Assembly (NCBI RefSeq): GCF_000219215.1
Contig: NC_015727.1
Span: forward strand, 372,001-436,000
Source of the DNA: Cupriavidus necator N-1
Lineage (GTDB): Bacteria > Pseudomonadota > Gammaproteobacteria > Burkholderiales > Burkholderiaceae
Length of the DNA: 64,000 bases
Direction of reading: 5' to 3'
The translations under genes were made by a program, and so were the position numbers. Position 1 is the first letter of the stretch, and every line of letters starts with the position of its first letter. The notes beneath the pieces are model-generated. The model saw only the letters and a program-made list of their open reading frames with translations, did not search any database and had not been told where the DNA came from. Positions 4,385-61,533 of the stretch are shown here, piece after piece.

Positions 4385-5860
4385 ATGCATGTCGAAGTCG
4401 TCGGAGAAATCCACCCTACGCTGGCGCTCGAAGGGCATCCCTACACTGCCGGGCCGTTCACCCCTAACTATCGCGAAGTCAATGCCGTTGACCTGGAGGT
4501 CGAAGGGACGATCCCGGCACGCCTCAATGGCGTCTATCTGCGCAACACCCAGAACCCCGTGCACCAGCCGCTCGGCAAGTTCCATCCGTTCGATGGCGAC
4601 GCGATGTTGCACCTGTTGAGCTTTCAAAACGGTCGCTGCGAGTACCGCAACCGCTTCGTCCGCACCAAGGCGTTCCAGCAGGAGCAACAAGCCGGGCGGG
4701 CGCTGTATGCCGGCCTGATCGACAAGCCGAGCTTGTCGGAGCTGCCGGGCTGGGGCGCGCGCGGCGGGCTGCGCGACAGCGCCGCGACCGACGTCATCGT
4801 CCATGCCGGAAAAGCCCTCGCGATGTTCTATCAATGCGGCGAACCATACCGGTTGGATGCACGTACCCTGGAATTGGAGGGGGTCGATGCCTGGGGCGCC
4901 GACGTGTTGCGGGACTGCGGCCTCTCCGCCCATGCCAAAGTCGATCCTCGCACCGGCGATCTGCTCTTCTTCAACTACAGCAAGGACGCTCCGTACATGC
5001 ATTACGGCGAGGTCGACCGGCAAAACCGGCTGGCGCACTACGTGCCGGTGCCGCTGCCGGGCCCACGGCTTCCGCACGACATGGCGTTCACCGAACATTT
5101 CGCTATCCTGAACGATTTTCCGCTGCATTGGGACGAAAACCTTCTGCCGCAAGGAAAGCACAAGCTCAGCTACTACCCCGACAAACCGTCGCGCTTCGCC
5201 ATCGTGCCGCGCCGCGGGGCCGCATTGGCGCAGATCCGCTGGTTCGAGGCAAGTCCGACCTACGTGCTGCATTGGCTCAATGCGTGGGAAGACGGCGACG
5301 AGGTGGTGCTGCACGGCTATCACCAGAAGACGCCCATGCCGAAGGCCGGCTACGACAACACCGGCAACACCATGGGGCCGGACCGTTATGGCCCCACGCT
5401 CTACGAATGGCGCTTCAACCTGCGCACCGGCGCTACGCGCGAACGCCGCCTGGACGAGCGCTATCTCGAATTCGGCATGGTCAACATGGAGTATTGGGGT
5501 AAGCCGTATCGCTACTCGTACAACATGATCGCGCATCCCGGCGCGTTCCTGTTCGACGGCATCCTGCGCTATGACCATACCACCGGCGAGTCGCAACAGT
5601 ACTTGTTCGGCGAGGGCCGCTTCGGCAGCGAATCGCCGATGGCGCCGTGCCACGACGCACAGGGTGAGGACGATGGCTATGTGGTCAGCTTCGTCACCGA
5701 CATGAACAATGACCGTTCCGAATGCCTGGTTCTGGACGCCCGCGATCTCGCCGCAGGGCCGGTCGCGCGCATTTTCCTACCCCATCGCATCAGCAGCGGC
5801 ACGCATGCGTGCTGGGCCGACGCAAGGGACATCCAGTCCGATTGGGCTGGCTTGCTGTGA
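4385..5860 (+). CDS. second carotenoid-cleavage-type oxygenase
   Basis: A 491-aa paralogue of the oxygenase at 1147 with the same four iron-binding histidines: H183 (SAHAK), H231 (LPHDMAF), H296 (VLHWLNAWEDGDE) and H474 (GTHACW). Like the first copy it is a non-haem iron C=C-cleaving enzyme. It differs most between residues 90 and 150 and in an extra loop near 310-325 (QKTPMPKAGYDN), regions that would shape the substrate tunnel. It starts 43 bp after the ligase, with only a weak ribosome site (GCGAG). Two copies in one operon suggest either successive cleavage of one molecule or cleavage of two related substrates; this is inference. Confidence 0.88.
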   Translation: MHVEVVGEIHPTLALEGHPYTAGPFTPNYREVNAVDLEVEGTIPARLNGVYLRNTQNPVHQPLGKFHPFDGDAMLHLLSFQNGRCEYRNRFVRTKAFQQEQQAGRALYAGLIDKPSLSELPGWGARGGLRDSAATDVIVHAGKALAMFYQCGEPYRLDARTLELEGVDAWGADVLRDCGLSAHAKVDPRTGDLLFFNYSKDAPYMHYGEVDRQNRLAHYVPVPLPGPRLPHDMAFTEHFAILNDFPLHWDENLLPQGKHKLSYYPDKPSRFAIVPRRGAALAQIRWFEASPTYVLHWLNAWEDGDEVVLHGYHQKTPMPKAGYDNTGNTMGPDRYGPTLYEWRFNLRTGATRERRLDERYLEFGMVNMEYWGKPYRYSYNMIAHPGAFLFDGILRYDHTTGESQQYLFGEGRFGSESPMAPCHDAQGEDDGYVVSFVTDMNNDRSECLVLDARDLAAGPVARIFLPHRISSGTHACWADARDIQSDWAGLL

Positions 5861-9040: not shown

Positions 9041-10021
9041 ATGTCCACAAAAACCCGCCGATCGTTCCTCGCGTTCGCTGCTCAGGCCGCGTGCCTCGCT
9101 TGGCTCGGCAATCCCGTGTGGGCCCAGTCGAAGCCGGTGGCGCGGATCGTCGTCCCCTTCGCGCCCGGCGGAGGAGGCGATGTGCTGGGGCGCCTGCTGG
9201 CGGAGAAGCTGTCCATCGAGCTGGGCCAGGCCGTCATCGTCGAAAACCGGCCGGGGGGCAGCGCCACGATTGCCACTGACGTGGTGGCCAAGTCGGCGCC
9301 GGATGGCAATACGATCCTGCTGACGGTGCCGCTGCTGGTGCAGACGCCATCGCTGTTCAAGAAGCTGCCATTCGACCCGATCGCCGACCTGACGCCGGTC
9401 GTTGACGTGGTCACGTCGCCGCTATGGGTGGCGGTCAGTACCTCGAGGACCTCGGCGCGCACCGTCAAGGAGTTCGTGGCGGACGTCAAGGCGCATCCGG
9501 CCAAGCATAGCTTCGCCTCCCTCGGCAACGGCTCCTCGGCACATGTGCTCGGCTCGCAGTTCAACGCAGTGGCTGGGCTAGACATGATCCACGTGCCCTA
9601 CAAGGGCTCTGCCCCGGCGAGCGTGGCGCTGGTCGCGGGCGAGGTGTCACTCACGATCCTGGATATCGTCACGCTGAAGCCGCAACTGGCATCGGGCAAG
9701 ATCCGCCTTCTGGCGGTCACTGGCGGCAAGCGGTCGCCGTTGACGCCCGAGGTGCCGACGCTGGCTGAGCAAGGCTATCCGGGCTTCGATCTGCCGACGT
9801 GGGCCGGGCTGTTCGTCCCCAGCAAGACCTCGCCCGAGATCGTCCGCAAGCTGCACGCGGCGACAGTGAAGGTTCTCCATCAGCCCGATGTCGTATCACG
9901 CCTCGGCGGCCTCGGCTACATGCCCGGCGGCCAGTCCCAGGAATCGTTCGCCAGGGGAGTCGGCGCCGAAAAAGTGCGCTGGGCCGAGCTGATTGGAAAG
10001 GCCGGGATTCAACCGGACTGA
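9041..10021 (+). CDS. Bug-family periplasmic solute receptor (tripartite tricarboxylate transporter type)
   Basis: A 326-aa extracytoplasmic binding protein of the Bug/TctC family, which is greatly expanded in Burkholderiales and binds carboxylates. The signal region contains TRRSFLAF followed by a hydrophobic stretch and AxA-like cleavage near NPVWAQ; the double arginine with FL suggests Tat export. The mature part begins KPVARIVVPFAPGGGGD and carries ENRPGGS, both hallmarks of the family. ATG 9041 was chosen because the signal peptide starts there; the open frame reaches further upstream. No TctA/TctB membrane genes are near, as is common for orphan Bug receptors. Confidence 0.9.
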   Translation: MSTKTRRSFLAFAAQAACLAWLGNPVWAQSKPVARIVVPFAPGGGGDVLGRLLAEKLSIELGQAVIVENRPGGSATIATDVVAKSAPDGNTILLTVPLLVQTPSLFKKLPFDPIADLTPVVDVVTSPLWVAVSTSRTSARTVKEFVADVKAHPAKHSFASLGNGSSAHVLGSQFNAVAGLDMIHVPYKGSAPASVALVAGEVSLTILDIVTLKPQLASGKIRLLAVTGGKRSPLTPEVPTLAEQGYPGFDLPTWAGLFVPSKTSPEIVRKLHAATVKVLHQPDVVSRLGGLGYMPGGQSQESFARGVGAEKVRWAELIGKAGIQPD

Positions 10022-10032
10022 TCTGCCGCAGC

Positions 10033-10048
10033 CGGCCCGATAGGGCCG
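10033..10048. terminator. short GC hairpin between the two Bug receptor genes
   Basis: CGGCCC and GGGCCG pair perfectly around a GATA loop 11 bases after the first Bug stop. There is no T-run after it, so it is more likely an mRNA-stabilising or partial attenuation hairpin than a full terminator. Confidence 0.3.
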
Positions 10049-10136
10049 TCGTTCAGTTGCAACAATGCTGTGACATTTGCCACTGCGCGTACGCGCAGAG
10101 CCCCCTTTTTACTTCCGAATTTGTCGAGGTGATCCA

Positions 10137-11114
10137 ATGACGTGGATTTCATTCCCCCGCCGGCGCGCCCTGATGGCGATGCTGGTTCTGCTGTGCGGCC
10201 CGGTTGCGGCCCAGTCGTACCCCGACAAGCCCGTGCGGGTCGTGGTGCCGTTCCCCGCCGGTGGCGGTACCGATGTGGTCGCGCGCATCGCCGGTTCGGC
10301 GCTGCAGGTCAATATGAAGCAGGCCATTGTGGTCGACAACCGGCCCGGCGCAAGCGGCGTGATCGGCAGCGACTATGTCGCCAAGGCCCAGCCTGACGGC
10401 TATACGTTACTGTTCACGATTCCGATCCTGCTGCAGACTGCCAGCGCGATGCCGAAGATCCCGTATGACCCGCTGCGCGACTTCGTTCCCGTGACCACCC
10501 TGGTTAGCGCGCCGCTGTGGCTGGCAGTCAGCACCAGCCGCGTAAAGGCCACCGATTTCGCAGCATTCACCAGCGAGGCGAAAGCCACCACCAAAAAGTG
10601 GGAATACTCCTCGTTCGGCAACGCCTCGTCGTCGCACTTGTACGGCCACGCATTGAACCAGGCGCTAAGTGCCGGCATGCTCCACGTTCCATACAAAGGT
10701 GGGAGTGCCGCGGTGCAAGCGCTGGCGAACGGGGAGGTCGCCGCGATGTGGACCGATTATCCGTCTGTGCGTCCCTATGTCGCATCCGGGAAGGTGCGCA
10801 TCATCGCCTCCTCTGGCGCCAAGCGAAGCCGCCTGACGCCCGATGTCCCCACGCTGTCGGAACTTCGCTTGCCGGGTTTCGAAGCGCTCGGCTGGGGCGC
10901 CTTCTTCGCACCCGCGGGAACGCCCCCGGAGGTCGTCAAGCGCTTGCAGACCGAGATTTCGGCGGTGACGCGCAATCCGGACGTCGTCAAGAAATTTGCC
11001 GACCTGGGCTACGAGCCCGGGGGCAAGCCGCAGCCGGAATTCGCCGCCGATGTCCGCGCCGATCAGGCACGCTGGTCCGCCTTGATCAAGGCGGCCGACA
11101 TTCGGCTGGACTGA
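10137..11114 (+). CDS. second Bug-family periplasmic solute receptor
   Basis: A 325-aa paralogue of the preceding receptor. A Sec-type signal peptide (PRRRALMAMLVLLCGPVAAQS) is followed by YPDKPVRVVVPFPAGGGTDV and DNRPGASGV, the two signature stretches of Bug proteins. ATG 10137 has a GAGGTG ribosome site seven bases upstream; an upstream in-frame ATG at 10077 would spoil the signal peptide. The two receptors differ in their ligand-facing loops, so they may bind different carboxylated intermediates. The porin gene follows after about 200 bp, suggesting a joint uptake role. Confidence 0.9.
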   Translation: MTWISFPRRRALMAMLVLLCGPVAAQSYPDKPVRVVVPFPAGGGTDVVARIAGSALQVNMKQAIVVDNRPGASGVIGSDYVAKAQPDGYTLLFTIPILLQTASAMPKIPYDPLRDFVPVTTLVSAPLWLAVSTSRVKATDFAAFTSEAKATTKKWEYSSFGNASSSHLYGHALNQALSAGMLHVPYKGGSAAVQALANGEVAAMWTDYPSVRPYVASGKVRIIASSGAKRSRLTPDVPTLSELRLPGFEALGWGAFFAPAGTPPEVVKRLQTEISAVTRNPDVVKKFADLGYEPGGKPQPEFAADVRADQARWSALIKAADIRLD

Positions 11115-11319
11115 GCCTTCGAAAAGGGCGGCCCATTTGTTGCCTCGGTATGGGCCGGGGCTAACCCTGCGTAAGGGAGGGGCGGCGCGTTATCTCATAT
11201 TTCCGAATTGATTCATCAGAAACGTTCTACTGATGAGCCGGCAGGCAGGAAGAATAAGTTGCCGCCGGGAAATGGGGAATTCCCGCAGGGTCTGCATCAC
11301 ATCGATAAGGAGGAGTGTT

Positions 11320-12556: not shown

Positions 12557-13618
12557 ATGACTAACAGGCATGATCTCGCCGGCACGGTGCCGGTGCGCGA
12601 GCAGCATCAGTTCGACCAGACGGCCCTGGAGCGCTGGATGGAACAGAATGTGGCGGGCTATGCGGGGCCGCTCACGATCGACCAGTTCAAGGGCGGGCAG
12701 TCTAACCCCACATACCGCCTGACCACGCCTGGCCGCAGCTATGTGCTGCGGCGCAAACCGCGCGGCGCCTTGCTGAAGGGCGCCCATGCGGTGGAGCGCG
12801 AAGCGCGCGTGATGGCGGCGCTCGGCCAAGCGGATTTTCCGGTGCCGTATATCCACGGGCTTTGCATCGACGATTCGGTGATTGGCAGCTGGTTCTTTGT
12901 CATGGATATGATCGAAGGCCGGATCTTCTGGGATGCCAGTTTTTCCGATGTTTCACGGCATGACCGTGCGGCGTACATGGACGCGATGAACGCGACGCTG
13001 GCCCGGTTGCATACGATAGATCCCGCTTCGATCGGTCTAAGCGATTACGGCAAGCCTGGCGGTTACGTGGCTCGCCAGGTGGCACGCTGGTCGGCCCAGT
13101 ACCTAAGCGACGGAGTGGCCGGTCGGCATCCCTCGATGGATCTGCTTGCCAACTGGTTGCCTCGGCATCTGCCAGCCGCCGATGAGGTTGCCATTGCGCA
13201 TGGCGACTTCCGGGCCGACAACATGATTTTTCATCCTTCCGAGCCCCGGGTGCTGGCGGTGCTGGATTGGGAGCTGTCTACCCTCGGTGATCCACTTGCC
13301 GACTTCGCCTATCATGTAATGATGTTCCGCATGCCGTCTGACATCCTGGGTGGCATCGCGGGGCGGGACTTGGCAGCCTTGGGATTGCCGGATGAGGTTG
13401 CGTATGTCGACGCTTATTGCAGGCGTACAGGCCGCGATGGTATCCCGAACCTCGATTTCTACATCGCCTTCAACATGTTCCGCTTCGCCGCGATCCTGCA
13501 TGGCATCAAGGGCAGAGTTGCGCGCGGCACGGCCTCCAATGCCGACGCGCATGCCATGGGCGAACGCTTTGCGCGCGTGGCCGAGCTGGCTTGGGCGCAG
13601 GCGCAGCGAGTGGGTTGA
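12557..13618 (+). CDS. APH-family phosphotransferase (acyl-CoA kinase-like)
   Basis: A 353-aa protein with the aminoglycoside-phosphotransferase kinase fold. The catalytic loop is HGDFRADN with H215 and D217, and the metal-binding DWELSTLGDPLAD follows. This branch (N-terminal GGQSNPTYRL glycine loop) is the one found fused to or next to acyl-CoA dehydrogenases, as in human ACAD10/11, where it phosphorylates 4-hydroxyacyl-CoA. It therefore probably acts on a hydroxyacyl-CoA rather than an antibiotic. A GAGGA site precedes the ATG. It has no ACAD beside it, unlike the copy at 36949. Its 3' end overlaps the tail of the truncated hydratase frame on the other strand. Confidence 0.85.
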   Translation: MTNRHDLAGTVPVREQHQFDQTALERWMEQNVAGYAGPLTIDQFKGGQSNPTYRLTTPGRSYVLRRKPRGALLKGAHAVEREARVMAALGQADFPVPYIHGLCIDDSVIGSWFFVMDMIEGRIFWDASFSDVSRHDRAAYMDAMNATLARLHTIDPASIGLSDYGKPGGYVARQVARWSAQYLSDGVAGRHPSMDLLANWLPRHLPAADEVAIAHGDFRADNMIFHPSEPRVLAVLDWELSTLGDPLADFAYHVMMFRMPSDILGGIAGRDLAALGLPDEVAYVDAYCRRTGRDGIPNLDFYIAFNMFRFAAILHGIKGRVARGTASNADAHAMGERFARVAELAWAQAQRVG

Positions 13619-14201
13619 GGGCTGGCCGGGATTTCGCGTTAGCTCTTTTGTGCCGCGATTTGTTGGTCGCGATTATCGAGTTTATGGGATCGACACCGAG
13701 CTCACGCTCGAGGTACTGGCGGGAACGCGAGTAGCCGACGACCATCGGCCAAAAAAACGCCCCGCTGTCCTCAGCAGACTGCCCGATGTTTACGTGAGGA
13801 TCCGCGATCTCCGCGGTATCCACCGAAATCGCCACATCTGCCAGGAGCGCGAGCGTAGCCCCCAGGCCTCTCGCATGACCGTTGACGCGTGCGATCACCG
13901 GCTTGGACATTGAAAGCAGCGAGCTCACCATGTTTGGTGCACGGGAAATCATGGAGGCGCGGACGCTCGAGTTGTCGCATGCTTTCAGCCTGCCGGTCCG
14001 GTCAGCGCCCGCAGAAAACACTCGACCGGTGCCAGTGAGCACCACCACTTCACATTCCGCGTCGTGCTCGATCTCATCGAAGACGTAGGAGAGTTCATCG
14101 TGCAAACCAAAGTTCGCGGCGTTAGCGGATGGGTTGTCCATCGTCACTGTGAGAATCTTGCCGCGCCGCTCGAATTTCAGAAACTTGTAACGTTCATACA
14201 T
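13506..14201 (-). pseudogene. 3'-truncated enoyl-CoA hydratase
   Basis: From ATG 14201 a crotonase-like protein is readable for about 165 residues: TVTMDNPSANA, TGTGRVFSAGAD, the oxyanion segment VNGHARGLGA and IADPHVNIGQSAEDSG. Homology stops at GYSRSRQYL (near 13711), where an intact enzyme would continue with LTGD and another 80-90 residues. The frame then runs through unrelated sequence into the antisense of the kinase gene and stops at 13506. The C-terminal helices needed for trimerisation and part of the active site are missing, so the gene is probably dead. It is last in the leftward run that starts at 19805. The closest relative in the window is the hydratase at 59703. Confidence 0.75.
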
Positions 14202-14317
14202 GGAGTTCTGGATGTAACCGGACGGTATCCCCAGGGGCGTGGCAGGAAGCCTGGGCGTGGCCAGAAGAGTTGGGTGGGTGGTAGAGACACCAGCGGTCCG
14301 GTCGCGCAGCTTGCCGG

Positions 14318-16054
14318 TTACCGTGCCTCGGCCTCGTGGACGGCCGCCCGATGATTGGCTGCGATGTCGTTTGCCGCAACGTAGCCGAATGTCAGGGCCT
14401 GTCCGAGGGTAGCACCCGCGCCGGGGTAGGTATCGCCATAAACCGAGCCGGAAGCATTTCCCGCGGCATATAGCCCGGGAATCGGGTTGTCGTTGAGGTC
14501 CAGCACACGCGCTCTGGGGTCCACCTTTAAGCCTCCTTTGGTGCCCAGGTCGCCCAAGTTCACTGGAACGGCATAAAAGGGACCTTTTTCGATTGTGCCA
14601 AGGCAAGGGTTTGGAGTGTGCCGCGGATCGCCGAGGAAACGGTCATACTCGAAGCTGCCACGCCCAAATTCCGGATCTATCCCAGTGCGCGCGTATTCAT
14701 TGATCTTGCGGACTTCCTCACTGAGCGGCTGCGGTGGAAGTCCGATGCTTCCGGCCAGCTCAGCAATGCTGTCCGCACGATACAAATACCTGGTCCACCA
14801 GTGCTCGGGAATCTTGCTGTCCGGCATGATGGATGCCGGCATCAGGCCGCCAGCGGTGTACAGCTTGCGGAACTGGGCGTCGAATACGAGCCAACAGGGG
14901 ATGCTCATCCCGGTTTTCTGCTGCTCTTCGATCAGAGCGATCCCGAAGCGGTCGTAGCTGCAGGATTCGTTGAGAAAGCGGCGCCCCAACTGGTTGACAC
15001 ATAGGCTGTGCGGACGACCGACATCGAAGACCATCTGGTGCACCATATCGATGTTGGGGACGCCGTGGATGGGCATCACCATGGTGGGGACCCACCACGC
15101 GCCTTCCATGAACTCGATTGCGGCGCCAATTGCCTGGCCCGCCTGGATCGCCATCCCGGTATTACCGTCCATGGGCGTGCTGCTGAATCGCGCAGGAAGC
15201 GGAAGCGGAAGATGCTTGTCACGCAGCGCCTGGTTCCATTCGAAGCCACCGGCTGCGATGACGACGCCCCGGCGCGCGTCAATCCGGATTGGCCGACCGT
15301 ACTGCCTCAGCCATACGCCAACTACCTCGCCGTGCTCAACGATCAACTCATCCAGTGCCGTGTTGAGCCATAGGGGAACGCGGCGCTTGTTGAGCGCCAT
15401 GCGCATTCCTCCGATAAGGGCATTACCCATCGAGAGCCGGCGGTCCCGAGGTGTCTTGCGGCGCCAGGAGAAATCGGTCCAGTAGTTGAAGACCATTTTT
15501 GCGAAGAGGCTGCGCCACCCCGGCGCCCTGGTGGCCAGGGTGAACGCCTCATAGAGGCTGAGCGTGTAGCGGTTGAATATCTTGAAGCGGACGAACTGTT
15601 CGCGCAGCGTGTGAAAATCGTTGGCCAGTCCGGCGCCGTCGATTACCTGGGGAGCCAGGGCCCGTCCAGGGTGGGCGCCTTCGGCCTCGGAGTAATAGTC
15701 CGGATAGCCCGTCTGCACGTCGAGCTTCAGCCCGGTACTGCTGGCGAGGTAGCGGGCCATTTCCGGCGCGGTATCGACGAATTTTTCCAGGCGATCCTGG
15801 CGCACTGGCCCGCGTGCCACCGTCTTCAGATAAGTGAGAGCCTTTTCCCGGCTGTCGCCGGTTGCATCGAGACCATGATTGGGCACCCAGAAAAGGCCGC
15901 CGGACGTTGCCGACGTGCCGCCGTACTGGCGTTCCTTTTCGACGATCAATACATCCAGACCCTGGTCCCTGGCGCGCAAGGCGGCCATCATCCCGGCCGC
16001 TCCCGAGCCGATCACGATAACATCGTAGGTGACTTTCATCTGATTTTCTGACAT
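14318..16054 (-). CDS. FAD-dependent dehydrogenase, 3-ketosteroid-delta1-dehydrogenase-like
   Basis: A 578-aa flavoprotein of the FAD-binding-2 / 3-oxosteroid 1-dehydrogenase group. The N-terminal dinucleotide fold VIGSGAAGMMAALRA is followed by EKERQYGGTSATSGG, and the C-terminal FAD-contact region is GLYAAGNASGSVYGDTYPGAGATLG. The family desaturates rings or acyl chains next to a carbonyl. I chose the ATG at 16054 (MSENQ); an internal ATG at 16039 is possible. It starts 55 bp after the hydrolase/flavin-reductase fusion in the same leftward operon. A full-length paralogue of the same length lies at 45184. Confidence 0.88.
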   Translation of the reverse strand: MSENQMKVTYDVIVIGSGAAGMMAALRARDQGLDVLIVEKERQYGGTSATSGGLFWVPNHGLDATGDSREKALTYLKTVARGPVRQDRLEKFVDTAPEMARYLASSTGLKLDVQTGYPDYYSEAEGAHPGRALAPQVIDGAGLANDFHTLREQFVRFKIFNRYTLSLYEAFTLATRAPGWRSLFAKMVFNYWTDFSWRRKTPRDRRLSMGNALIGGMRMALNKRRVPLWLNTALDELIVEHGEVVGVWLRQYGRPIRIDARRGVVIAAGGFEWNQALRDKHLPLPLPARFSSTPMDGNTGMAIQAGQAIGAAIEFMEGAWWVPTMVMPIHGVPNIDMVHQMVFDVGRPHSLCVNQLGRRFLNESCSYDRFGIALIEEQQKTGMSIPCWLVFDAQFRKLYTAGGLMPASIMPDSKIPEHWWTRYLYRADSIAELAGSIGLPPQPLSEEVRKINEYARTGIDPEFGRGSFEYDRFLGDPRHTPNPCLGTIEKGPFYAVPVNLGDLGTKGGLKVDPRARVLDLNDNPIPGLYAAGNASGSVYGDTYPGAGATLGQALTFGYVAANDIAANHRAAVHEAEAR

Positions 16055-16109: not shown

Positions 16110-17468
16110 CTATTTCTCTGACTCTTCACGCGCCACGTGGATGCGTCGGTATTTCCCTTGGAAGAACAGTAAAGGATCCCGGACCGGGTCATAATGGACT
16201 CGCTTAACAAGTCCGAGCACAATCACATGGTCACCGCCATCAACGATTTCGCGAATCGAGCATTCGAAGTTTGCTATGGCATCGAGAATGATCGGAACCT
16301 GATACTCCCAGAGTTCCCATTCCGTCGCCGCAAACCTGTCTTCGATCCGGGACGCGAATTTCCCGGAAATCGCCTGCTGCCCGATATGCAGCACATTCAC
16401 CGCGAATGCGCCGCGCTTGCGCAGTGCTTCGACGCTGGCCGATTCGCGCTTGACGCAGAACAGCACGAGCGGCGGGTCGAGCGATACCGAAGTGAACGAA
16501 TTTGCGGTGAATCCCATCGGCGTGCCATCGGGATCCGAGGTGGTAATCACAGTGACGCCTGTCGCGAAGCATCCCATCGCGTCGCGCAGCATGCGCGGCT
16601 CGACGCCGCCTTGAGGACGCAACTTTGAGCGCGGGATGGCGCGCTCCAGGAAACCGATGATCGCGGCATCAAAGGCGTCATTGCGGCCGCCGATGATTGC
16701 GTCGCCCATACCTGGGATGTCCGCGAATTCCGCATGCGGTACCAGTTCGCGGAATTCATGCATGCTTTCCCGGTCGACCTTCGTGCTGGATTCGCCTCGA
16801 ACGAAGAAAGTCGGAATATCCAGCGCCAGCGCGGCTGCGGTGAATCGGCGTTGTGCGGCCTTGCGGTCGGAAGCATCGACCTTGAACCCTTGATAGGCGG
16901 GATCGATGTGCCAGCGGAAGCGACCATCGTCGCATCGCCTGAGGTGCCGCTTCACTTCCTCGAGGTCGAGTTGCTGCTTGGCGGGAAGGTGTTCCGCGAC
17001 GACCCGGCCGGCATCCGCCACCGTGGAAAAACCGTCTGCATCCATTGTCATCAGCGATGCCATGCGGTCCAGACCGGCCGGTGCCATCCGCGGCGCCGCA
17101 TCGATCAGCACCAGCGCGCTCGCCAGCGGTTCCGGACTCTCGCTGATCGCCGCCAATGCTGCAAGCCCGCCGAGATTGGCGCCCACTACCGCGGGTTTCG
17201 AGGGCAGTTGCTGGATCACCGCCACAATATCCTGAATGATGTCGCCTAGCTCATATCGCCTGTTCGGTGACCAGTCACTCTCTCCGTGCCCGCGCAACTC
17301 TACCGTTACGACGTAGCGTCCGGCCGCCACCAGGGCTTTCGACGCCCTGGCCCAGGCAGCAGCCGTCTGTCCAAAGCCGGGCAGCAGCAGCACGCATGGG
17401 TCCTCGGGGGCGCCGCTCGCACTGGCTGCCAGAGTAATTTCACCAGAGCCGTTTAATCGCATTGTCAT
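16110..17468 (-). CDS. alpha/beta-hydrolase-fold domain fused to a flavin reductase
   Basis: A 452-aa two-domain protein. Residues 1-280 have an alpha/beta-hydrolase fold closely like the protein at 28769. Residues 289-452 form a flavin-reductase-like split barrel (MLRDAMGCFATGVTVITT, GFTANSFTSVSLDPPLVLFC), the kind that feeds reduced flavin to two-component monooxygenases. The hydrolase triad is lost: the nucleophile position is N98 (GANLGG instead of GASLGG), the acid position is T229, and the histidine position is D256 (GMGDAI instead of GAGHMV). The first domain is thus probably a binding or scaffold domain. Adjacent genes are an amidohydrolase upstream and the flavoprotein downstream; no partner monooxygenase is visible in the window. 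Confidence 0.85.
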   Translation of the reverse strand: MTMRLNGSGEITLAASASGAPEDPCVLLLPGFGQTAAAWARASKALVAAGRYVVTVELRGHGESDWSPNRRYELGDIIQDIVAVIQQLPSKPAVVGANLGGLAALAAISESPEPLASALVLIDAAPRMAPAGLDRMASLMTMDADGFSTVADAGRVVAEHLPAKQQLDLEEVKRHLRRCDDGRFRWHIDPAYQGFKVDASDRKAAQRRFTAAALALDIPTFFVRGESSTKVDRESMHEFRELVPHAEFADIPGMGDAIIGGRNDAFDAAIIGFLERAIPRSKLRPQGGVEPRMLRDAMGCFATGVTVITTSDPDGTPMGFTANSFTSVSLDPPLVLFCVKRESASVEALRKRGAFAVNVLHIGQQAISGKFASRIEDRFAATEWELWEYQVPIILDAIANFECSIREIVDGGDHVIVLGLVKRVHYDPVRDPLLFFQGKYRRIHVAREESEK

Positions 17469-17822: not shown

Positions 17823-18842
17823 TCACGTTTGTTGAAGCTTGTACACCCGCTTTGCCACCGCGGCAAACATATCGGAGCGTTCGCTCGGGCTGAAGCCGGA
17901 TGCAATCCGCTTGTAGCCGTTCCAAAGCGCGTTGTAAGAGGTATAAAGCATGTCGACCGGGAAGTTGCTCTCGAACATGCAGCGCGAAGGCGTGAACAGG
18001 TCGATCGCGGTCAGCACATATTGGCGGTGCAGATCAGCGAATTCTTCCGACGTGAGTGGCCGCGCGGGCCATTGGATTTTGGTGGGATCGGTTTGGGTAA
18101 CATAGATGCCGCCCAGCTTAACCACGATATTGCTGCAGGTCGCGAGCTGCGCCATTGCTTCCTTCCAGGCCTTGAAGCCCTCGGTGCGGCGCTCTGCGAA
18201 CCGTCCGATGCCAAGTGGACCACCCAAATGGTTAAGCACAATGGTGACCTGCGGAAACGCGTGTGCCAGGTCGAGGACCTCACCGAGTTGCGGCTGCAGT
18301 GCCCACGCCTCAAAATTGAGGTCCCGTCGCGCCAGTTCCGCGAATCCCTTACGGAATTCAGGCCTTTTCGAGATTTCCGCCTCGGATGCGCCGTAGATGG
18401 GTGGCAGCTCGGCATCGTACGCGAGCATGTGGCGAATGCCACGGAAGCGGCGGGAAGCCTCGGCGTGGGCATCCAGGACCTCGCCTACCGAAGCCCCCAG
18501 GCACAGGTTCGCATGAGGCATGATAGCGGCGCAGACTCCGGCCGCTTTGCCGCCACGTCGTTCGCTTTCCTGCACCACCCTTTCGGCGTATACGGTTTCG
18601 CCGACCGGTCGCATTGCTTCCGGCCCGTCGGTGTAATGCTGCGCATGGGAATCGACCAGGACGGTAGCGATGACGTTGTGGCCCGAGTCGGCCGTGTCCG
18701 CGATCAGCTCATCGGCGTCATACGGTTCGAAAAGTGGGTGTGTCCAGCCTTTGCCCCAAATGTGGTGGTGTGGATCGACGATGGGGAGATCCGGATCCAG
18801 TGCCACCTCGGCTTCAACATTATTCCAGTGCTTTGAAGTCAC
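17823..18842 (-). CDS. amidohydrolase-2 family protein
   Basis: A 339-aa TIM-barrel metal-dependent hydrolase/decarboxylase. The metal site begins with VDPHHHIWG near residue 20, and later motifs include LNHLGGPLG and FESNFPVD near the C-terminus. These enzymes hydrolyse lactones or decarboxylate aromatic or cyclic acids. I place the start at GTG 18842, with AAGGAG seven bases upstream; the open frame extends further but lacks family sequence. It is second in the leftward run, after the hydratase at 19026-19805. A lactonase role would suit opening of a cyclic intermediate, but this is inference. Confidence 0.85.
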   Translation of the reverse strand: MTSKHWNNVEAEVALDPDLPIVDPHHHIWGKGWTHPLFEPYDADELIADTADSGHNVIATVLVDSHAQHYTDGPEAMRPVGETVYAERVVQESERRGGKAAGVCAAIMPHANLCLGASVGEVLDAHAEASRRFRGIRHMLAYDAELPPIYGASEAEISKRPEFRKGFAELARRDLNFEAWALQPQLGEVLDLAHAFPQVTIVLNHLGGPLGIGRFAERRTEGFKAWKEAMAQLATCSNIVVKLGGIYVTQTDPTKIQWPARPLTSEEFADLHRQYVLTAIDLFTPSRCMFESNFPVDMLYTSYNALWNGYKRIASGFSPSERSDMFAAVAKRVYKLQQT

Positions 18843-19025
18843 GTCAGTCTCCTTGTGTCGGCACGTCGTACAAGCCGCTGTCGTCGCGGCCAATATCAGA
18901 CTGCAAGTTTGCAGGGCGCTGTTGGGGGTTGAGGCCCATACGGCAGCGCTACCGTTTTTTGACCATGTCTGGTTACCGGCACAGAGCAAGCTATCTTGCT
19001 CCGCAAGTCCACCGGGCAGCGTAGG

Positions 19026-28768: not shown

Positions 28769-29623
28769 ATGCATCGATTCAAGGTAACGGGTGGGTTGTC
28801 AGTCGCGGCCGATGTCGGAGGAGATGTCCAGAATCCTGTCGTCGTGCTGCTGCACGGTGGCGGCCAGACCCGGCATAGCTGGAGGAAAGGCTTCGACGCG
28901 CTGGTGGAGGCGGGATACCACGTGGTCTCGCTGGACGCCCGCGGGCATGGCGACAGCGACTGGGCCCCCGACGGGGACTATCGCCTGGATGCGCTGGTTT
29001 CGGATTTGCGTTCGGTCCTGGCGCAGATACCGGAAATGCCAATCGTCATCGGGGCTTCACTGGGGGGCATGACCGGGCTCGCCGCGGTTGGGGAGGCGCA
29101 AGCGCCCATCGCGCGCGCGCTGGTCCTGGTGGATATCACTCCCGGGTATGACACGCGTGGAACGGACCATATTGCCGCGTTCATGAATGCCAATCTGGAT
29201 GGGTTCGGCAGCATTGACGAGGCAGCCGACGCGGTGGCGCGTTACAACCCGAACAGGCCGCGCCCGAAAAACCCAGAGGGCCTTCGGCGTAATCTGCGCG
29301 AGCGCGATGGCCGCCTTTACTGGCACTGGGACCCCAGGTTCCTGTCCCACGGGGAATTGCACCCGGATTTCGTGCAAGGCCGCCTCGAGGCCGCCGCGCA
29401 GCGGGTGCGGGTGGCGACTTTGCTGATACGCGGCGGCTTTAGCGACGTGATCGGCGATGAGCAGGTTGATGCGTTTCGCAAACTGATGCCGGCCGCCGAA
29501 TGCGTGACGGTCGCGGGTGCGGGTCATATGGTGGCTGGCGACCGCAACGATGCATTCAATCGCGGCATTCTCGAATTCATTGCGAGGCAGGACAACAGAA
29601 GCGAATCGGCTTATTCCCGGTAG
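28769..29623 (+). CDS. alpha/beta-fold hydrolase
   Basis: A 284-aa hydrolase. The oxyanion motif HGGG is at 29-32, the nucleophile elbow GASLGG gives S97, the acid is D226 (RGGFSD) and the histidine is H253 (GAGHMVAGD), so the triad is intact. I chose ATG 28769; the frame is open upstream but the core fold begins only here. Likely substrates are esters, lactones, thioesters or C-C bonds of a vinylogous diketone. Its close relative is the first domain of the fusion protein at 16110, which lacks this triad. It leads the rightward run with the racemase-like gene. Confidence 0.87.
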   Translation: MHRFKVTGGLSVAADVGGDVQNPVVVLLHGGGQTRHSWRKGFDALVEAGYHVVSLDARGHGDSDWAPDGDYRLDALVSDLRSVLAQIPEMPIVIGASLGGMTGLAAVGEAQAPIARALVLVDITPGYDTRGTDHIAAFMNANLDGFGSIDEAADAVARYNPNRPRPKNPEGLRRNLRERDGRLYWHWDPRFLSHGELHPDFVQGRLEAAAQRVRVATLLIRGGFSDVIGDEQVDAFRKLMPAAECVTVAGAGHMVAGDRNDAFNRGILEFIARQDNRSESAYSR

Positions 29624-40821: not shown

Positions 40822-43800
40822 ATGCGCGACGTAACGGTTGAAGACAAGTATCTGCTGGAAGCCGGAATGGCCATGATGACCGGAATCCAGGCATTGGTGC
40901 GGCTGCCCATGCTGCAGCGTGGACTCGATCGCAAGCGTGGACTCAATACCGCCGGCTTCATCTCGGGTTATCGCGGATCGCCGCTTGGCGCCTACGACCT
41001 GGAATTGTGGAAGGCGAAGGCACACCTGGAACGCGAGGACATCCTGTTTCAGCCCGGGGTCAACGAGGACCTGGCTGCAACCGCCGTGTGGGGCACGCAG
41101 ACGCTTGGGCCGCTGCACAGGCCGACGAAGGACGGCATATTCGCTATCTGGTACGGGAAGGGACCGGGCGTGGACCGGTCGGGCGACCCGTTGCGGCATG
41201 GCAATATCGCCGGAACCCATCCCAATGGCGGCGTGCTGGTGGTCGCGGGGGATGACCATGCCGGGAAATCGTCGAGCATCGCCCATCAAAGCGAAAGCGT
41301 GCTCATGCATGCGGGAATCCCGGTGCTGGCGCCGTCCAATGTGCAGGATATCCTCGATTTCGGCCTGCTGGGATTCGCGCTGTCGCGTTACACCGGTCTT
41401 TATGCCGGACTGAAAGTCTGCAACGAGGTCATCGAACAAACGATGACGGTGGCGATCCCCGCGCACGCGGGAGCATGGGCATTGCCGGAACGCGGCAGCG
41501 CGCCGCCCACGGGCTTTCACAATTATCCCAGCGACCGCGACCGGATCCAGTCGGAGATCGTGGTCAAGCGCTACCGCCTGCCGTTGGTCGAACGGTTCTT
41601 GCGAGCCAATTATGTCAACCGGGTCCTGGTGGAGGCGACGCAACGCCGGCTTGGCATCGTTACCGCGGGCAAGGCGGTACAGGACGTGCGACAGGCGCTC
41701 GGTCTTCTGGGCCTGAGCGATGCGCACGCCACCCGGCTCGGCATCTCGGTCTACCAGCTGGGTTGCGTGTATCCGCTCGAGCCGCAAGGGATGGCGGATT
41801 TCGCGCGGGGACAGCAGGAATTGCTGTTCATCGAAGAAAAGAACCCGATCGTGGAGCACCAGGCAAAGGTGGCCTTGTATGGCCAGCCCGGCATGCCGCG
41901 CATCGTCGGCAAGACCGATGAAGACGGCATCGCAATGATTGCGTGCGACACGCAGCTGGAGCCGCTGAAGCTGGCCATCGTGATCGGTGAGCGCCTGCGG
42001 CGGCTTGGCATCGAGGACGCGGAGGTTGCGGCGCGTGTACAGCGGCTGATCGGGCAGGCGGAACTCGCAGCCGCTCTGAATCCGCCCACCGACGTGGTTC
42101 GCGCACCCTATTTCTGTTCCGGTTGTCCGCACAATACCGGAACCCGCTTCCCGGAAGGCAGCGTTGCCGCCGGCGGCATCGGTTGCCATGCGATGGCCAT
42201 GTACAGTGGTCCGGAGATGCTGACCACCAGCCACATGGGCGGGGAGGGTGCGCATTGGTACAGCGTTGCCCATTTCTCCGGGGTGCCGCACATATTCCAG
42301 AACATGGGCGATGGCACCTATTACCATTCCGGGCTGCTGGCGATTCGCGGAGCGATTGCCGCCAACGTCAACATGACGTTCAAGATCTTGTTCAACGACG
42401 CGGTGGCAATGACGGGCGGCCAGCCGGTGGATGGGCCGCTCACGCCAGGAGATATCACGAGGCAGGTCCTGGCCGAAGGGGTGAAGCGCTGTGTGCTGGT
42501 GACCGACCGGCCCGATCTTTACGGTCCTCGCAGTGGCCTGGCTGACGGCGTCGCCGTCCACCACCGCGATCACTACGACACCGTTCAAAGGCAACTGCGC
42601 GAGATCAAGGGCGTCACGGTCGTCATCTACGAGCAGACCTGTGCCGCCGAGAAACGGCGTCGCCGCAAGCGCGACAAGTTTTCCGATCCGCCCAGGCGCA
42701 TGTTCATCCATGCCGAGGTATGCGAAGGCTGCGGCGACTGTTCGACACAGTCCAATTGCGTGAGCGTGTGGCCGAAGGAAACGGAGCTCGGGCGCAAACG
42801 GGAAATCGACCAGTCGAACTGCAACAAGGATTACAGCTGCGTCAAGGGGTTCTGCCCGAGCTTTGTGACGGTGCTTGGGGCCGAGCCGCGCAAGCCGGAA
42901 ACCGCGGACCTCGCGGGCCTGTCCCTGACTGGCTTGCCTGCTCCGGCGGTCGCTCCGATCGGGGAAGCGGGATTCAATCTCATGATTTCCGGCATTGGCG
43001 GCACCGGCGTGGTCACCATCGGCGCATTGCTCGGGATGGCGGCCCACCTTGAGCGCAAGGCCTGTTCCATCTTCGATATGACTGGCCTGAGCGTCAAGAA
43101 CGGCGCGGTGTTCAGCCATGTCCGCATCGCCGCGAACCAGGGCCAGTTGAGAGCGGCCAGGCTGGGTGCGGCCGAGGCCGACCTTGCATTGGCCTTCGAC
43201 GCGGTTGCCGCGCTGTCCAGGGAGCCGGCTGCGACTTATGATGCCACGCGCACGCGCACCGTGGCCAACGCGAGGATCGTTCCGGTTGCCGCATTCCAGC
43301 GTAATCCCGATCTGACCATCGACCAGCGTCAGATCGTCCGGAAGCTGGAAAAGCAATGCGCGGAACTGGAGGTCGTCGATGCCACCGGGCTGGGGTTGGC
43401 GTTGCTCGGCGATGCCATCGCCGCCAACCTGTTCTTGCTCGGCCATGCATGCCAGCGTGGCCTGCTTCCCGTGACTCCGGAAGCGGTGGAAAGGGCGGTG
43501 GAAATCAATGGCGTGGCGATTGCCTTCAACAAGAAGGCCTTCGCCCTCGGACGCTACTACGCGATCGATCCGGCAGCGCTGGAGGCAGCGGCCGGTGCGC
43601 GGCAGAAGATCAACTTCAAGTCCCTGAGCGAACTGCCCGACATCGTGGCGCACCGCAGCCACATGTTGACCGCTTACCAGAACGCCGCTTATGCGGAGCG
43701 CTATCGGCGCCTGGTGCAGCGTGTCGTCACCGCAGAGGAACGCGTGATGCCCGGCAAGACCGCCCTGGCAGTCGCGGTTGCGCGTAATTTCGCCAGGCTG

Positions 43801-44307
43801 ATGGCTTATAAGGATGAATATGAAGTCGCCCGCCTGTATTCGGACCCGGCGTTCAAGCGGCAACTCAGGGACGCATTCGAGGATGGCGCAACGATCCGCT
43901 ACAACCTGGCGCCGCCGCTGTTGGCCAGGCGCGATCCCGGGTCCGGCCATCTGATCAAGCGCGAATTCGGCCCGTGGCTGGCAAAGCTCTTTCCGCTGCT
44001 CGCGAACCTGAAGGGATTGCGCGGTACGCCGCTGGATCTGTTCGGCTATACGGCGGAACGCCGCATGGAGCGGAGCTTGATTGACCATTATGAGATGCAG
44101 ATGACAATGGTCGCGGACTGCCTGACGCCTTCCAGTCATGCGGTGGCCATCGAACTGGCCGGTATTGCAGGGCAGATCCGGGGCTTCGGGCATGTGAAGG
44201 AAGCTAACGTGGTCAAGGCGCGCGCGCTCGAGCGTCGCACTCTGGAGCGCTTTCATGCGGCCTGTGCGTCCGCTTGCGTGGAGCCAAGGACCGCGGTCCA
44301 GGCGTAG
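40822..44307 (+). CDS. fused indolepyruvate:ferredoxin oxidoreductase (2-oxoacid oxidoreductase)
   Basis: A 1161-aa single-chain enzyme that oxidatively decarboxylates a 2-oxoacid to an acyl-CoA using thiamine diphosphate. The N-terminal pyrimidine domain shows GYRGSPLGAYD. The TPP-binding part has YFCSGCPHNTGTRFPEG, GDGTYYHSGLLAIR and FNDAVAMTGGQP. A cysteine cluster follows (CEGCGDCSTQSNC, C634-C646, then CNKDYSCVKGFCPSF), likely carrying a 4Fe-4S cluster. The C-terminal gamma-type domain begins ISGIGGTGVVTIGALLG. Fusions like this occur in aerobic proteobacteria for arylpyruvates or branched oxoacids. No ferredoxin gene is nearby. A near copy is at 56151. Confidence 0.92.
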   Translation: MRDVTVEDKYLLEAGMAMMTGIQALVRLPMLQRGLDRKRGLNTAGFISGYRGSPLGAYDLELWKAKAHLEREDILFQPGVNEDLAATAVWGTQTLGPLHRPTKDGIFAIWYGKGPGVDRSGDPLRHGNIAGTHPNGGVLVVAGDDHAGKSSSIAHQSESVLMHAGIPVLAPSNVQDILDFGLLGFALSRYTGLYAGLKVCNEVIEQTMTVAIPAHAGAWALPERGSAPPTGFHNYPSDRDRIQSEIVVKRYRLPLVERFLRANYVNRVLVEATQRRLGIVTAGKAVQDVRQALGLLGLSDAHATRLGISVYQLGCVYPLEPQGMADFARGQQELLFIEEKNPIVEHQAKVALYGQPGMPRIVGKTDEDGIAMIACDTQLEPLKLAIVIGERLRRLGIEDAEVAARVQRLIGQAELAAALNPPTDVVRAPYFCSGCPHNTGTRFPEGSVAAGGIGCHAMAMYSGPEMLTTSHMGGEGAHWYSVAHFSGVPHIFQNMGDGTYYHSGLLAIRGAIAANVNMTFKILFNDAVAMTGGQPVDGPLTPGDITRQVLAEGVKRCVLVTDRPDLYGPRSGLADGVAVHHRDHYDTVQRQLREIKGVTVVIYEQTCAAEKRRRRKRDKFSDPPRRMFIHAEVCEGCGDCSTQSNCVSVWPKETELGRKREIDQSNCNKDYSCVKGFCPSFVTVLGAEPRKPETADLAGLSLTGLPAPAVAPIGEAGFNLMISGIGGTGVVTIGALLGMAAHLERKACSIFDMTGLSVKNGAVFSHVRIAANQGQLRAARLGAAEADLALAFDAVAALSREPAATYDATRTRTVANARIVPVAAFQRNPDLTIDQRQIVRKLEKQCAELEVVDATGLGLALLGDAIAANLFLLGHACQRGLLPVTPEAVERAVEINGVAIAFNKKAFALGRYYAIDPAALEAAAGARQKINFKSLSELPDIVAHRSHMLTAYQNAAYAERYRRLVQRVVTAEERVMPGKTALAVAVARNFARLMAYKDEYEVARLYSDPAFKRQLRDAFEDGATIRYNLAPPLLARRDPGSGHLIKREFGPWLAKLFPLLANLKGLRGTPLDLFGYTAERRMERSLIDHYEMQMTMVADCLTPSSHAVAIELAGIAGQIRGFGHVKEANVVKARALERRTLERFHAACASACVEPRTAVQA

Positions 44308-46920: not shown

Positions 46921-47310
46921 GAGGTTGCCGCTCTCGATGAAGCCGATTGGAACCCGGCATCTCTCTTCACGTGTGGCGGCCTATTCCATCGAGACTCAGC
47001 AGCCACGCCATGTGGCAGTCGAGTTGCATCCGGCATGGCTGATTGTCTGAGCAAAGCGAGCAGAGCAAAGGCCTGCCACGTTTCGTCAAAACTGTTGGCC
47101 TCTACAGACATGTTTTCGGACGCAAATTCTCTGCGATTCAGCTTAAATTCAATGCCATAAGGGCGGATGAAATTAGGCATAAGTTCAATCGTTCGCCAAT
47201 CGATCAGCTGGAAAAAAAATAACACAGCGTCGTCGCATGCTCTCTGATCGATACGCAGACCGCTCGGAAATGGAATTGGAATGCACATCAAAGAGGAGAG
47301 AGACAGAAAA
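46921..47310. promoter_or_regulatory. 390-bp AT-richer leader before the DUF1302 gene
   Basis: No gene is seen. From about 47090 to 47230 the sequence is distinctly AT-rich (an A8 run at 47213-47220), typical of a strong promoter region. The elements GCCATAAG and GGCATAAG occur about 25 bp apart near 47155-47180. GAGGAGAG precedes ATG 47311. This points to independent transcription of the envelope module. Confidence 0.45.
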
Positions 47311-48945
47311 ATGAGCAACATCAAAGGATGGGCCAGAGGCTTGCATGCCGCCGCCGCGTTGGGTCTGTTGATCGGCGTGGCCCGCGATGCCCAGGCCTTC
47401 AAGTTCGACCTGCCGGATCCGGACTTCGAAGTCCGCTGGGACAATACCGTTCGCTACAACATCGGCATTCGCGCGGAAGGCCGGGATTCGAGAATCATCA
47501 ATAATCCGCTGTTCGACACGTCCGATATGAAGTTCGACCAGGGCGACCTGGTCACCAATCGTGTCGACCTGTTGTCCGAGATGGACGTGGTTTATAAAGG
47601 CCGTCACGGCTTCAGGATCAGCGCGGCCGGCTGGTACGACAATGCGTACAGCGACACCAAGGTCGAAGGCAATCCGATTTTCGGTCCTCCCAGCTCCTAC
47701 CCTGGCGGCAATTACACCAATTACGTCAAGCGATATAACCGGGGCCCTTCCGGAGAGTTCCTGGATGCCTTTGCCTTCACCAAATTTGACCTTGGCAATG
47801 TCCCGGTCAATCTGAAATTGGGTCAGCACACCACCTACTGGGGCGAGTCGCTTTTTTCCTTGTCAAACAGCATCGCGTATTCGCAGGGTCCGGTGGACGT
47901 AATCAAGGCGACTGCCAATCCGGGCAGCCAGGCGAAGGAACTGTTTCTACCGATAGCGCAAATCTCGGGTCAGGCGCAATTGACTGAAGAGCTGTCGGTG
48001 GCGGCTTTGTATTTCCTCGACTGGAAACCATGGCGCTTGCCTGATGGCGGCACGTACTTCGGCTCCGCCAATTTCTTCTCGGTGGGCGGCGGTACCTTTG
48101 TCCAGCCCGGCGTCCCGTTCCTCGGCGCCAGCGATCGCCCCCGCAACACCGGCGACTGGGGCGTCATGGGCCGGTGGTCGCCGGATTGGCTGCAGGGCAC
48201 GGTCGGATTCTATTACCGCGAGTTTGACGAGAAGCTGCCCTGGGTGGTCTTCAATCCCGGCTTTTCGAGCGCTCGCCTTGCCTATGCGGAGAATACCAAG
48301 CTCTATGGTGTCAGCCTGGCGAAACAGTTGGGCGGGGCGAGTATCGGCGCGGAAGTCTCCTATCGCAAGGATGCTGCGCTGAATAGCAATGCGGCACTCA
48401 GTGCTCAGGGGGCTCGTGGCGATACCGTGCACGCTCTTGTTAATGGCATCGCGTACTTTGGTAACAGCCCGCTGTGGGGCGCGGCTCCCCTTACCGCCGA
48501 ACTGAACTATACGCACCTGATCAAGGCAAAAAGCAATGGTGGCCTGCTTCCGCTGGAGGGAACGGCCGCCTGCGTATCCGCCACGCCGGGCGTGCCGGGC
48601 GATGTCTACGATGGCTGCGTCACCAAGAACGCATGGGCGTTGAACCTGTCGTTTGAACCGGTGTGGTACCAGGTTCTGCCGGGCGTGGACCTCAAGGCCC
48701 CGCTGAGTTACTCCATCGGCCTCGGCGGCAACGCGGCAACCCTCGGCGGCAGCCGCAAAGGAAACGGCGCCTACAGCATCGGGCTGACGGCGGAGGTGCA
48801 CAACCGCTATTCCATTTCGCTCAAGTATAACGATTACCTCGTCAAGTTCCGCGACAACGGCACCGCGGTCACGACCAACAACGGTGGCGGCGCGCTCTAT
48901 TCCGATCGAGGCTGGGTTTCTCTGACTTTTCAGACCTCGCTCTAA
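47311..48945 (+). CDS. DUF1302-family outer-membrane protein
   Basis: A 544-aa outer-membrane barrel protein of the DUF1302 family. A signal peptide (hydrophobic residues 12-27, cleavage near AQA-FKF) precedes FEVRWDNTVRYNIGIR, the family start. The chain alternates short beta-strands and ends GWVSLTFQTSL, with the usual hydrophobic C-terminal strand. Together with the next three genes it forms a module often seen near genes for degradation of steroids, terpenoids and other hydrophobic compounds. It probably passes the compound across the outer membrane. ATG 47311 was taken over the upstream ATG at 47281 because the signal peptide starts there. Confidence 0.88.
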   Translation: MSNIKGWARGLHAAAALGLLIGVARDAQAFKFDLPDPDFEVRWDNTVRYNIGIRAEGRDSRIINNPLFDTSDMKFDQGDLVTNRVDLLSEMDVVYKGRHGFRISAAGWYDNAYSDTKVEGNPIFGPPSSYPGGNYTNYVKRYNRGPSGEFLDAFAFTKFDLGNVPVNLKLGQHTTYWGESLFSLSNSIAYSQGPVDVIKATANPGSQAKELFLPIAQISGQAQLTEELSVAALYFLDWKPWRLPDGGTYFGSANFFSVGGGTFVQPGVPFLGASDRPRNTGDWGVMGRWSPDWLQGTVGFYYREFDEKLPWVVFNPGFSSARLAYAENTKLYGVSLAKQLGGASIGAEVSYRKDAALNSNAALSAQGARGDTVHALVNGIAYFGNSPLWGAAPLTAELNYTHLIKAKSNGGLLPLEGTAACVSATPGVPGDVYDGCVTKNAWALNLSFEPVWYQVLPGVDLKAPLSYSIGLGGNAATLGGSRKGNGAYSIGLTAEVHNRYSISLKYNDYLVKFRDNGTAVTTNNGGGALYSDRGWVSLTFQTSL

Positions 48946-49153
48946 CAGGTCGCCGAAAAACCGCTTTACCAACCTCGGCGCAACGCAGATGCCCTTACCG
49001 AGCGGCACACCCTCGATTTTCCCGGCAAGGTCGGAAGGGTAGGGCATCACTTGCAAGCCATCAGTCGGGCAGGCAGGCAGTTCAGGCACCTCCCAATGCG
49101 TCAATGCGTTGGGACGCTGTGATTGAACTTACGTAGAAACTGAAGGAGACACC

Positions 49154-50527: not shown

Positions 50528-50675
50528 CGGCGATTGGCTTTCCGGATGCGGCGCCGAGAGGTGCCGCACCGTCTTGCGCATGCTGTCCGCTGCATCGCCA
50601 CGTTGCCGTCGATGGCGCCCTTGATCAGATTGCATGGCCAGGGACGCTAGTCACAGTTCCCTCCGAGGGTTAAGT

Positions 50676-51752: not shown

Positions 51753-51778
51753 CCCGTATCAGACACTGAAGCGAAATT

Positions 51779-61349: not shown

Positions 61350-61533
61350 CCCGGCACGGGCGGGAAGGATCGCCGGGCGGGTCGGGCGCACAGCACATCG
61401 ATAGCCAGCCGCGCTTCCGGCAAAGATCCCGGCAACGACCCGGCTCAAGCGCCGGCGGAACGGAAGGAGAGGCAGCCCCGGCGGTTCTCCTTGCCGATGT
61501 CCCCGACGATTTCCCCAACCTTGAAAGGCGACT

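Follow-up and report, generated by a model that had tools for sequence, protein, structure and literature searches.

In two-component flavin monooxygenases, a reductase that runs without substrate wastes NADH and makes peroxide. HsaB, of the steroid monooxygenase HsaAB, is presumably a single-domain reductase. AbHpaC (C1; PDB 5zc2/5zyr), the reductase of p-hydroxyphenylacetate 3-hydroxylase, joins an HpaC-type flavin reductase domain to an extra, C-terminal MarR-type domain that is autoinhibitory and is relieved by substrate, and the passages of a review that deal with this enzyme call substrate stimulation of flavin reduction uncommon apart from it (PMC10816480). A hydrolase fold turned to ligand binding is found in GID1, the plant gibberellin receptor and kin of hormone-sensitive lipases, which has lost its active-site His, has a lid adapted for its ligand and contacts that ligand through Ser and Asp, according to the passages on GID1 in one paper (PMC3531792).

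Here we analyse a protein from Cupriavidus necator N-1, encoded in a 64,000-nucleotide window (the whole stretch of DNA that was analysed), that resembles each of these systems in part. Like AbHpaC, it fuses a flavin reductase to an extra domain, but the extra domain is N-terminal and of the alpha/beta-hydrolase type; the reductase is the C-terminal domain, and Pfam finds no MarR domain in the protein. Its closest relatives resemble GID1 in having lost the active-site His while conserving the lid, but they have mostly lost the Ser as well, which GID1, in the passages cited, keeps as a ligand contact, and GID1 has no flavin reductase.

Results

Domain layout and catalytic residues

The fusion gene (positions 16110–17468, minus strand, read from 17468 to 16110) encodes 452 residues with no internal stops. 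Its N-terminal half (residues about 1–279; 16632–17468, minus strand) is an alpha/beta-hydrolase-fold domain without catalytic Ser and His, assigned to that superfamily by an Abhydrolase_1 match above cut-off (Pfam, residues 24–253, 56.6 bits, cut-off 25.8) and by a matching fold. The C-terminal half (residues about 290–446; 16131–16601, minus strand) is a flavin reductase split barrel according to Pfam (Flavin_Reduct, PF01613, residues 298–443, 151.1 bits, cut-off 27) and solved relatives. The lid, or cap, spans residues 124–216 (16821–17099, minus strand), with bounds set by eye from the strands of the model. An assembly artefact or mis-called fusion was ruled out by a 71%-identical full-length copy in a second genome, that of Trinickia violacea, and 119 aligned full-length relatives also speak against it.

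The nucleophile is absent at the elbow (strand 93–97, helix 98–110), where the protein has N98 (in VGANLGG; codon 17175–17177, minus strand), and the His after strand 8 is absent from the loop following residues 247–251, where D256 (in PGMGDAI; codon 16701–16703, minus strand) stands in place of the His of many relatives. For the acid there are two candidate positions: T229, in the loop after strand 7 (residues 220–225; GESSTKV; codon 16782–16784, minus strand), and D123, a retained probable acid after strand 6 (residues 118–122; codon 17100–17102, minus strand). A single-domain paralogue in the same window (28769–29623, plus strand) has S97, D226 and H253; its alignment with the hydrolase half spans 280 columns, of which 38% are identical (E 2e-61). 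The earlier note's account of two fused domains, of N98, T229 and D256, and of the contrast with this same-genome paralogue is thus borne out.

Its further claim, that all three catalytic positions are changed, holds for the Ser and the His and probably fails for the acid. Position 229 is D or E in only 61 of the 134 fusions that carry both Ser98 and His256, whereas position 123 is D or E in 128 of them. In the best 120 of the paralogue's 8000 matches, a set that includes the window's own fusion protein, the equivalent of position 229 is D in 84, E in 18 and N in 18, and the equivalent of position 123 is D in all 120; Ser and His are both present in 120/120, although these single-domain relatives are less divergent than the fusions and their perfect Ser/His conservation is no divergence-matched control. 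The Curacin thioesterase structure 3qit, a thioesterase domain of a polyketide synthase, aligns with fusion residues 16–238 (E 1.8e-11) and places under D123 a Glu after strand 6 that we take to be its catalytic acid. D123 is therefore the likelier acid and position 229 probably not the place of the third catalytic residue, so that two catalytic positions are clearly lost in the window protein and the third is probably kept.

Spread of the fusion family and turnover of Ser and His

Both domains are present in 119 of the window protein's best 120 matches (of 3216) and in all of the best 120 matches (of 4947) of a Sphingomonas immobilis fusion (P0080); the hydrolase–reductase architecture is common and not unique to the window protein. 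The two sets, with overlaps removed, one partial protein dropped and the query added, give 223 distinct fusions, over which counts lean towards the two query proteins; matches beyond the best 120s may in part be single-domain. Named carriers are mostly alphaproteobacteria, among them Sphingomonas, Sphingobium, Sphingopyxis, Hyphomonas, Henriciella and Caulobacter. Closer to the host, among 398 genomes of its family, the fusion was found at E 1e-60 only in the host and one other genome (G166); among the matches listed for 148 relatives, no full-length fusion match besides the host's was seen; in a class sample of 369, a single additional match spans just the hydrolase part; and a search of plasmid records at E 1e-40 gave two matches, of which one covers at least 80% of the query.

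The database fusions carry names such as 'flavin reductase RutF / pimeloyl-ACP methyl ester carboxylesterase' or 'alpha/beta fold hydrolase' and are uncharacterised. A search of the open-access literature, whose scope takes in few subscription papers, showed among the papers listed none describing a hydrolase–reductase fusion. The earlier note knew of no described system of this architecture; the two-domain proteins themselves are common in databases.

Although they share the architecture of the window protein, many of these fusions differ from it in their catalytic residues. Ser98 is present in 161 of the 223 fusions examined and His256 in 150, position 256 being filled in all 223 rows, with loop indels in some that may have misaligned a few of the His calls; both residues, which the window protein lacks, are kept in 134, the remaining 89 are without the pair, and a strict Ser-Asp229-His triad occurs in 11. 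The earlier note had named fusion homologues with an intact triad as what would refute its reading; such homologues exist, and at the level of the family loss of the triad is not supported as a fixed design. Even the window protein's own clade of 30 does not conserve N98, T229 and D256, the residues that the note proposed to check.

On a tree of the 223 fusions, at least 21 changes are needed for Ser98 and 12 for His256, most of them probably losses because the solo proteins uniformly have Ser and His. Since 134 of the 223 fusions keep both residues, the ancestral job of the fused domain was probably hydrolysis, and other members of the family may still hydrolyse. The fusion itself requires one change of state on a hydrolase-domain tree of 165 rows, which holds 30 of 120 solo relatives and 15 locus rows, some of them partial; the locus rows were left out of the 223-fusion tree.

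The reductase half and its possible oxygenase partner

The reductase half is intact-looking and of the HsaB/HpaC type, with T303, G304, N323, S324, D413 and H414, among other positions, at least 98% conserved over 120 fusions, and going by its family it very probably reduces free flavin with NADH. Its best solved sequence relatives are 3rh7, 3nfw and 5zc2. The best curated match is the HsaB model NF045630 (E 5.3e-48), although its 163.3 bits fall below the cut-off of 230; NF045919 (NCBIfam), the model considered in the comparison with AbHpaC, likewise stays below cut-off (148.6 versus 340 bits).

Profile searches of the 64-kb window gave no match to luciferase-like PF00296 or HpaB PF03241, and both PF08028 matches in the window lie inside acyl-CoA dehydrogenase genes. 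Among these three families the window holds no convincing oxygenase partner, and no HsaA-like partner was recognised within it. Reductases of this type commonly have such a partner encoded close by, though not by strict necessity, and the joint delivery of substrate and reduced flavin to an oxygenase, raised in the earlier note, is a possibility only. Elsewhere in the host genome, for example, PF03241 matches at C4:346480 and PF00296 at C4:353668. In 80 kb of the Trinickia violacea genome there is no PF00296 or PF03241 match, whereas PF08028 matches six times; its top match there (78 bits), which lies about 3 kb from the fusion, scores much higher as an ordinary acyl-CoA dehydrogenase (158.6 versus 75.2 bits).

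Genomic surroundings

A gene for a 3-ketosteroid-delta1-dehydrogenase (KstD)-like FAD enzyme (14318–16054, minus strand; start ATG 16054 picked by eye) lies directly downstream of the fusion, 55 nt from stop to start, and is probably on the same transcript; no NCBIfam model reaches its cut-off on this enzyme. The KstD-like neighbour is a further point of resemblance to HsaB. Upstream lie a gene for an Amidohydro_2 family protein (Pfam; 17823–18989, minus strand) and an enoyl-CoA hydratase gene. Beyond the KstD-like gene, an enoyl-CoA-hydratase-like open reading frame (13506–14606, minus strand) matches profile positions 3–151 of 251 and is probably truncated.

Taken together, the genes of the window form a catabolic supercluster, in which Pfam recognises two carotenoid-oxygenase-family genes, a nitroreductase, an old-yellow-enzyme-type gene, acyl-CoA dehydrogenases, phosphotransferases, an AMP-binding ligase, a thiolase, a CaiB-type CoA-transferase, an ETF subunit and a POR-domain protein. 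The two RPE65/carotenoid-oxygenase-family genes (1147–2589 and 4385–5860, plus strand) flank what by eye is an acyl-CoA-ligase-like gene, and the pair are unusual neighbours for a KstD-type cluster. Two genes of about 1160 codons (40822–44307, with POR and DUF6537 domains, and 56151–59645; both plus strand) resemble by eye fused indolepyruvate ferredoxin oxidoreductases, and a single place in the Trinickia cluster is matched by both of them, at 47% and 75% respectively. An acyl-CoA dehydrogenase gene at 61491–62670 (plus strand) looks broken by eye, with its N-terminal and middle parts in different frames; in the open reading frame at 61534, the match is limited to the middle domain and one half of the C-terminal one.

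Consecutive genes for DUF1302, DUF1329, YCF48-like (PSII_BNR) and MMPL proteins (47281–54214, plus strand) resemble in order the AmeABCD genes (DUF1302, DUF1329, COG4447, RND transporter), which the relevant part of one paper places in the monoterpene metabolism of Castellaniella defragrans (PMC6394551). By that analogy the substrate of the pathway may be an apolar alicyclic compound. Trinickia violacea has, besides its 71%-identical fusion, many of the window's genes in a different order, among them a solo hydrolase 67% identical to the window's.

We also surveyed the neighbourhoods of fusion genes at other loci, at least 80 in number, 24 of which have no open reading frame in the fusion cluster. 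Across 56 loci, which include some short or reductase-only open reading frames, no family occurs within 4.5 kb of the fusion gene in more than 13; the commonest cluster, acyl-CoA-dehydrogenase-like by eye, reaches that number. No conserved neighbour within this distance names the substrate, and the context therefore suggests no common ligand. With a threshold of 35% identity, we looked for relatives of window genes in the 52 loci with a longer open reading frame of the fusion cluster, some gene labels again being by eye, some of these frames likewise short or reductase-only, and a 278-residue one taken in place of the fusion at locus L050: one SDR was found in 13, one thiolase in 11, CaiB in 7, an acyl-CoA dehydrogenase in 4, the solo hydrolase in 3, an enoyl-CoA hydratase in 2, and SDR_b, SDR_d, DUF1329 and a second acyl-CoA dehydrogenase in 1 each.

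A dead but constrained hydrolase domain

The window protein and 29 sequences at 61% identity or more form a monophyletic clade of 30 tips (support 99). His256 occurs in none of the 30, and Ser98, present in seven, is absent from 23. Position 98 is G in 16 members, S in 7, N in 4, A in 2 and Q in 1, and position 256 is D in 16, G in 9, N in 3 and S in 2. With both positions varying in this way, the replacements are not under clade-wide selection for a new catalytic role, and N98 and D256 as a new catalytic pair were rejected as a clade-wide feature.

We measured constraint on the hydrolase domain as its identity minus that of the reductase domain, over pairs with a reductase identity of 0.68–0.80. 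The difference is −0.095 in the clade (324 pairs; 70%-subsample range −0.104 to −0.083) and −0.181 among the 69 Ser- and His-bearing fusions of the first set (658 pairs; −0.192 to −0.170); the two subsample ranges do not overlap, although the pairs lack independence and the clade has a slightly higher mean reductase identity inside the matched range (0.739 versus 0.718–0.727). A control restricted to 51 Ser- and His-bearing fusions whose lids reach 80 residues or more gave −0.161 (237 pairs). The excess shrinks at reductase identities of 0.76–0.80, where hydrolase identity is 0.679 in the clade versus 0.637.

Lid length and a set of fixed residues also mark the clade. The lid has 92–94 residues in all 30 members, compared with 37–92 in the 134 Ser- and His-bearing fusions. 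R178, D180, R185, R202 and D267 are fixed in 30/30, and F32, in the loop after strand 25–29, is present in 29/30. The same residues occur in only 9 (R178), 7 (D180), 13 (R185), 2 (R202), 0 (D267) and 3 (F32) of the 134, where the shorter lids leave gaps at positions 178 (83/134) and 180 (91/134). The aligned sequences thus show the clade's hydrolase domain, above all its lid, to be more conserved than that of Ser- and His-bearing fusions at matched reductase divergence. With neither replacement selected for across the clade, the domain is plainly dead as a Ser–His hydrolase, yet the excess constraint and the fixed lid residues indicate that it is not decaying. Such strong selection on a dead domain suggests a new role, either in sensing a small molecule or in keeping the protein together.

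Discussion

Our preferred explanation, tentative and short of probable, is that the dead domain is a non-catalytic, lid-bearing ligand-binding module that gates an NADH:flavin oxidoreductase. On the precedents of AbHpaC and GID1, we propose by analogy a ligand-gated flavin reductase, and a domain that has kept its fold and a fixed lid but lost its chemistry points to a binding role. The protein would be an NADH:flavin oxidoreductase of the HsaB/HpaC kind, as its family predicts, and in this clade the fused domain, no longer a hydrolase, would have been kept to regulate it. Entry of a pathway intermediate into the old active-site pocket would be followed by closure of the lid and by an increase in NADH-driven flavin reduction or release, and the reduced flavin would be used by an oxygenase encoded elsewhere. 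The closer parallel with GID1, in which a pseudo-hydrolase sensor that arose by repeated loss of Ser and His would hold the intermediate under its lid and switch on production of reduced flavin only when substrate is present, is possible but somewhat less secure.

A purely structural role would likewise conserve the domain. It might serve in folding, in dimer formation or in docking, for example to the KstD-like enzyme or an oxygenase, with no small ligand involved; the fixed charged lid residues R178, D180, R185 and R202 could form an interface, and the core is conserved as well as the lid. We consider this possible, though somewhat less likely than gating, given the lid's large excess of conservation: lid identity is 0.571 in the clade versus 0.430 in the 51 long-lid Ser- and His-bearing fusions. 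In the alpha/beta-hydrolase fold the substrate is usually gated by the lid, and HsaB/HpaC-type reductases function without a fused hydrolase domain.

It is unlikely that the domain has become a non-hydrolytic catalyst, for instance a lyase, isomerase or cyclase working through H187, D123 or other residues, with the reductase on the same chain serving the following step. D123 is kept, and H187 (29/30) and the fixed charged lid residues mark the clade, but the elbow and histidine-loop positions are free to vary. As a lead only, a paper on carboxylesterase-like [4+2] cyclases mentions an ancestral carboxylesterase that had undergone some loss (PMC10873640).

Another account is decay: once fused, the hydrolase half would have lost its use and begun to drift, leaving a protein that is just a flavin reductase. 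The 21 and 12 minimum changes at Ser98 and His256 among the fusions, against solos that keep both residues in 120/120, would fit it, and for the scattered fusions without the pair outside the clade, slightly less conserved than the Ser- and His-bearing ones (−0.216, from only 26 pairs), simple decay is possible. For the window protein's own clade it is improbable, being disfavoured by the matched-divergence comparison, by a lid held at 92–94 residues throughout and by the open reading frame. Very improbable indeed is a pairing of the dead domain with the solo hydrolase at 28769 that would bring the reductase to it: the window and Trinickia each have fusion and solo in one catabolic supercluster, and in a Caulobacteraceae genome (L049, around 10001–11314) a solo gene 53% identical to the window's sits immediately before the fusion gene, but a non-fused solo relative (at least 42% identity, E 1e-40) was found in 11 of 20 fusion-bearing genomes and not in the other nine, so the pairing is not obligatory.

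The architecture is already known from databases, where it is automatically named, and a reductase with an accessory domain is known from AbHpaC. What we find most interesting is the repeated change of catalytic residues within one fusion family, combined with a dead domain that this clade conserves tightly. Should the fused hydrolase fold prove to be a sensor, flavin reduction would have a second gate, built independently of the first. Because fusions with the Ser–His pair (134) and without it (89) coexist, a single family would allow study of how an enzyme turns into a pseudoenzyme, and the single-domain paralogue of the same genome, with its triad, could serve as a control.
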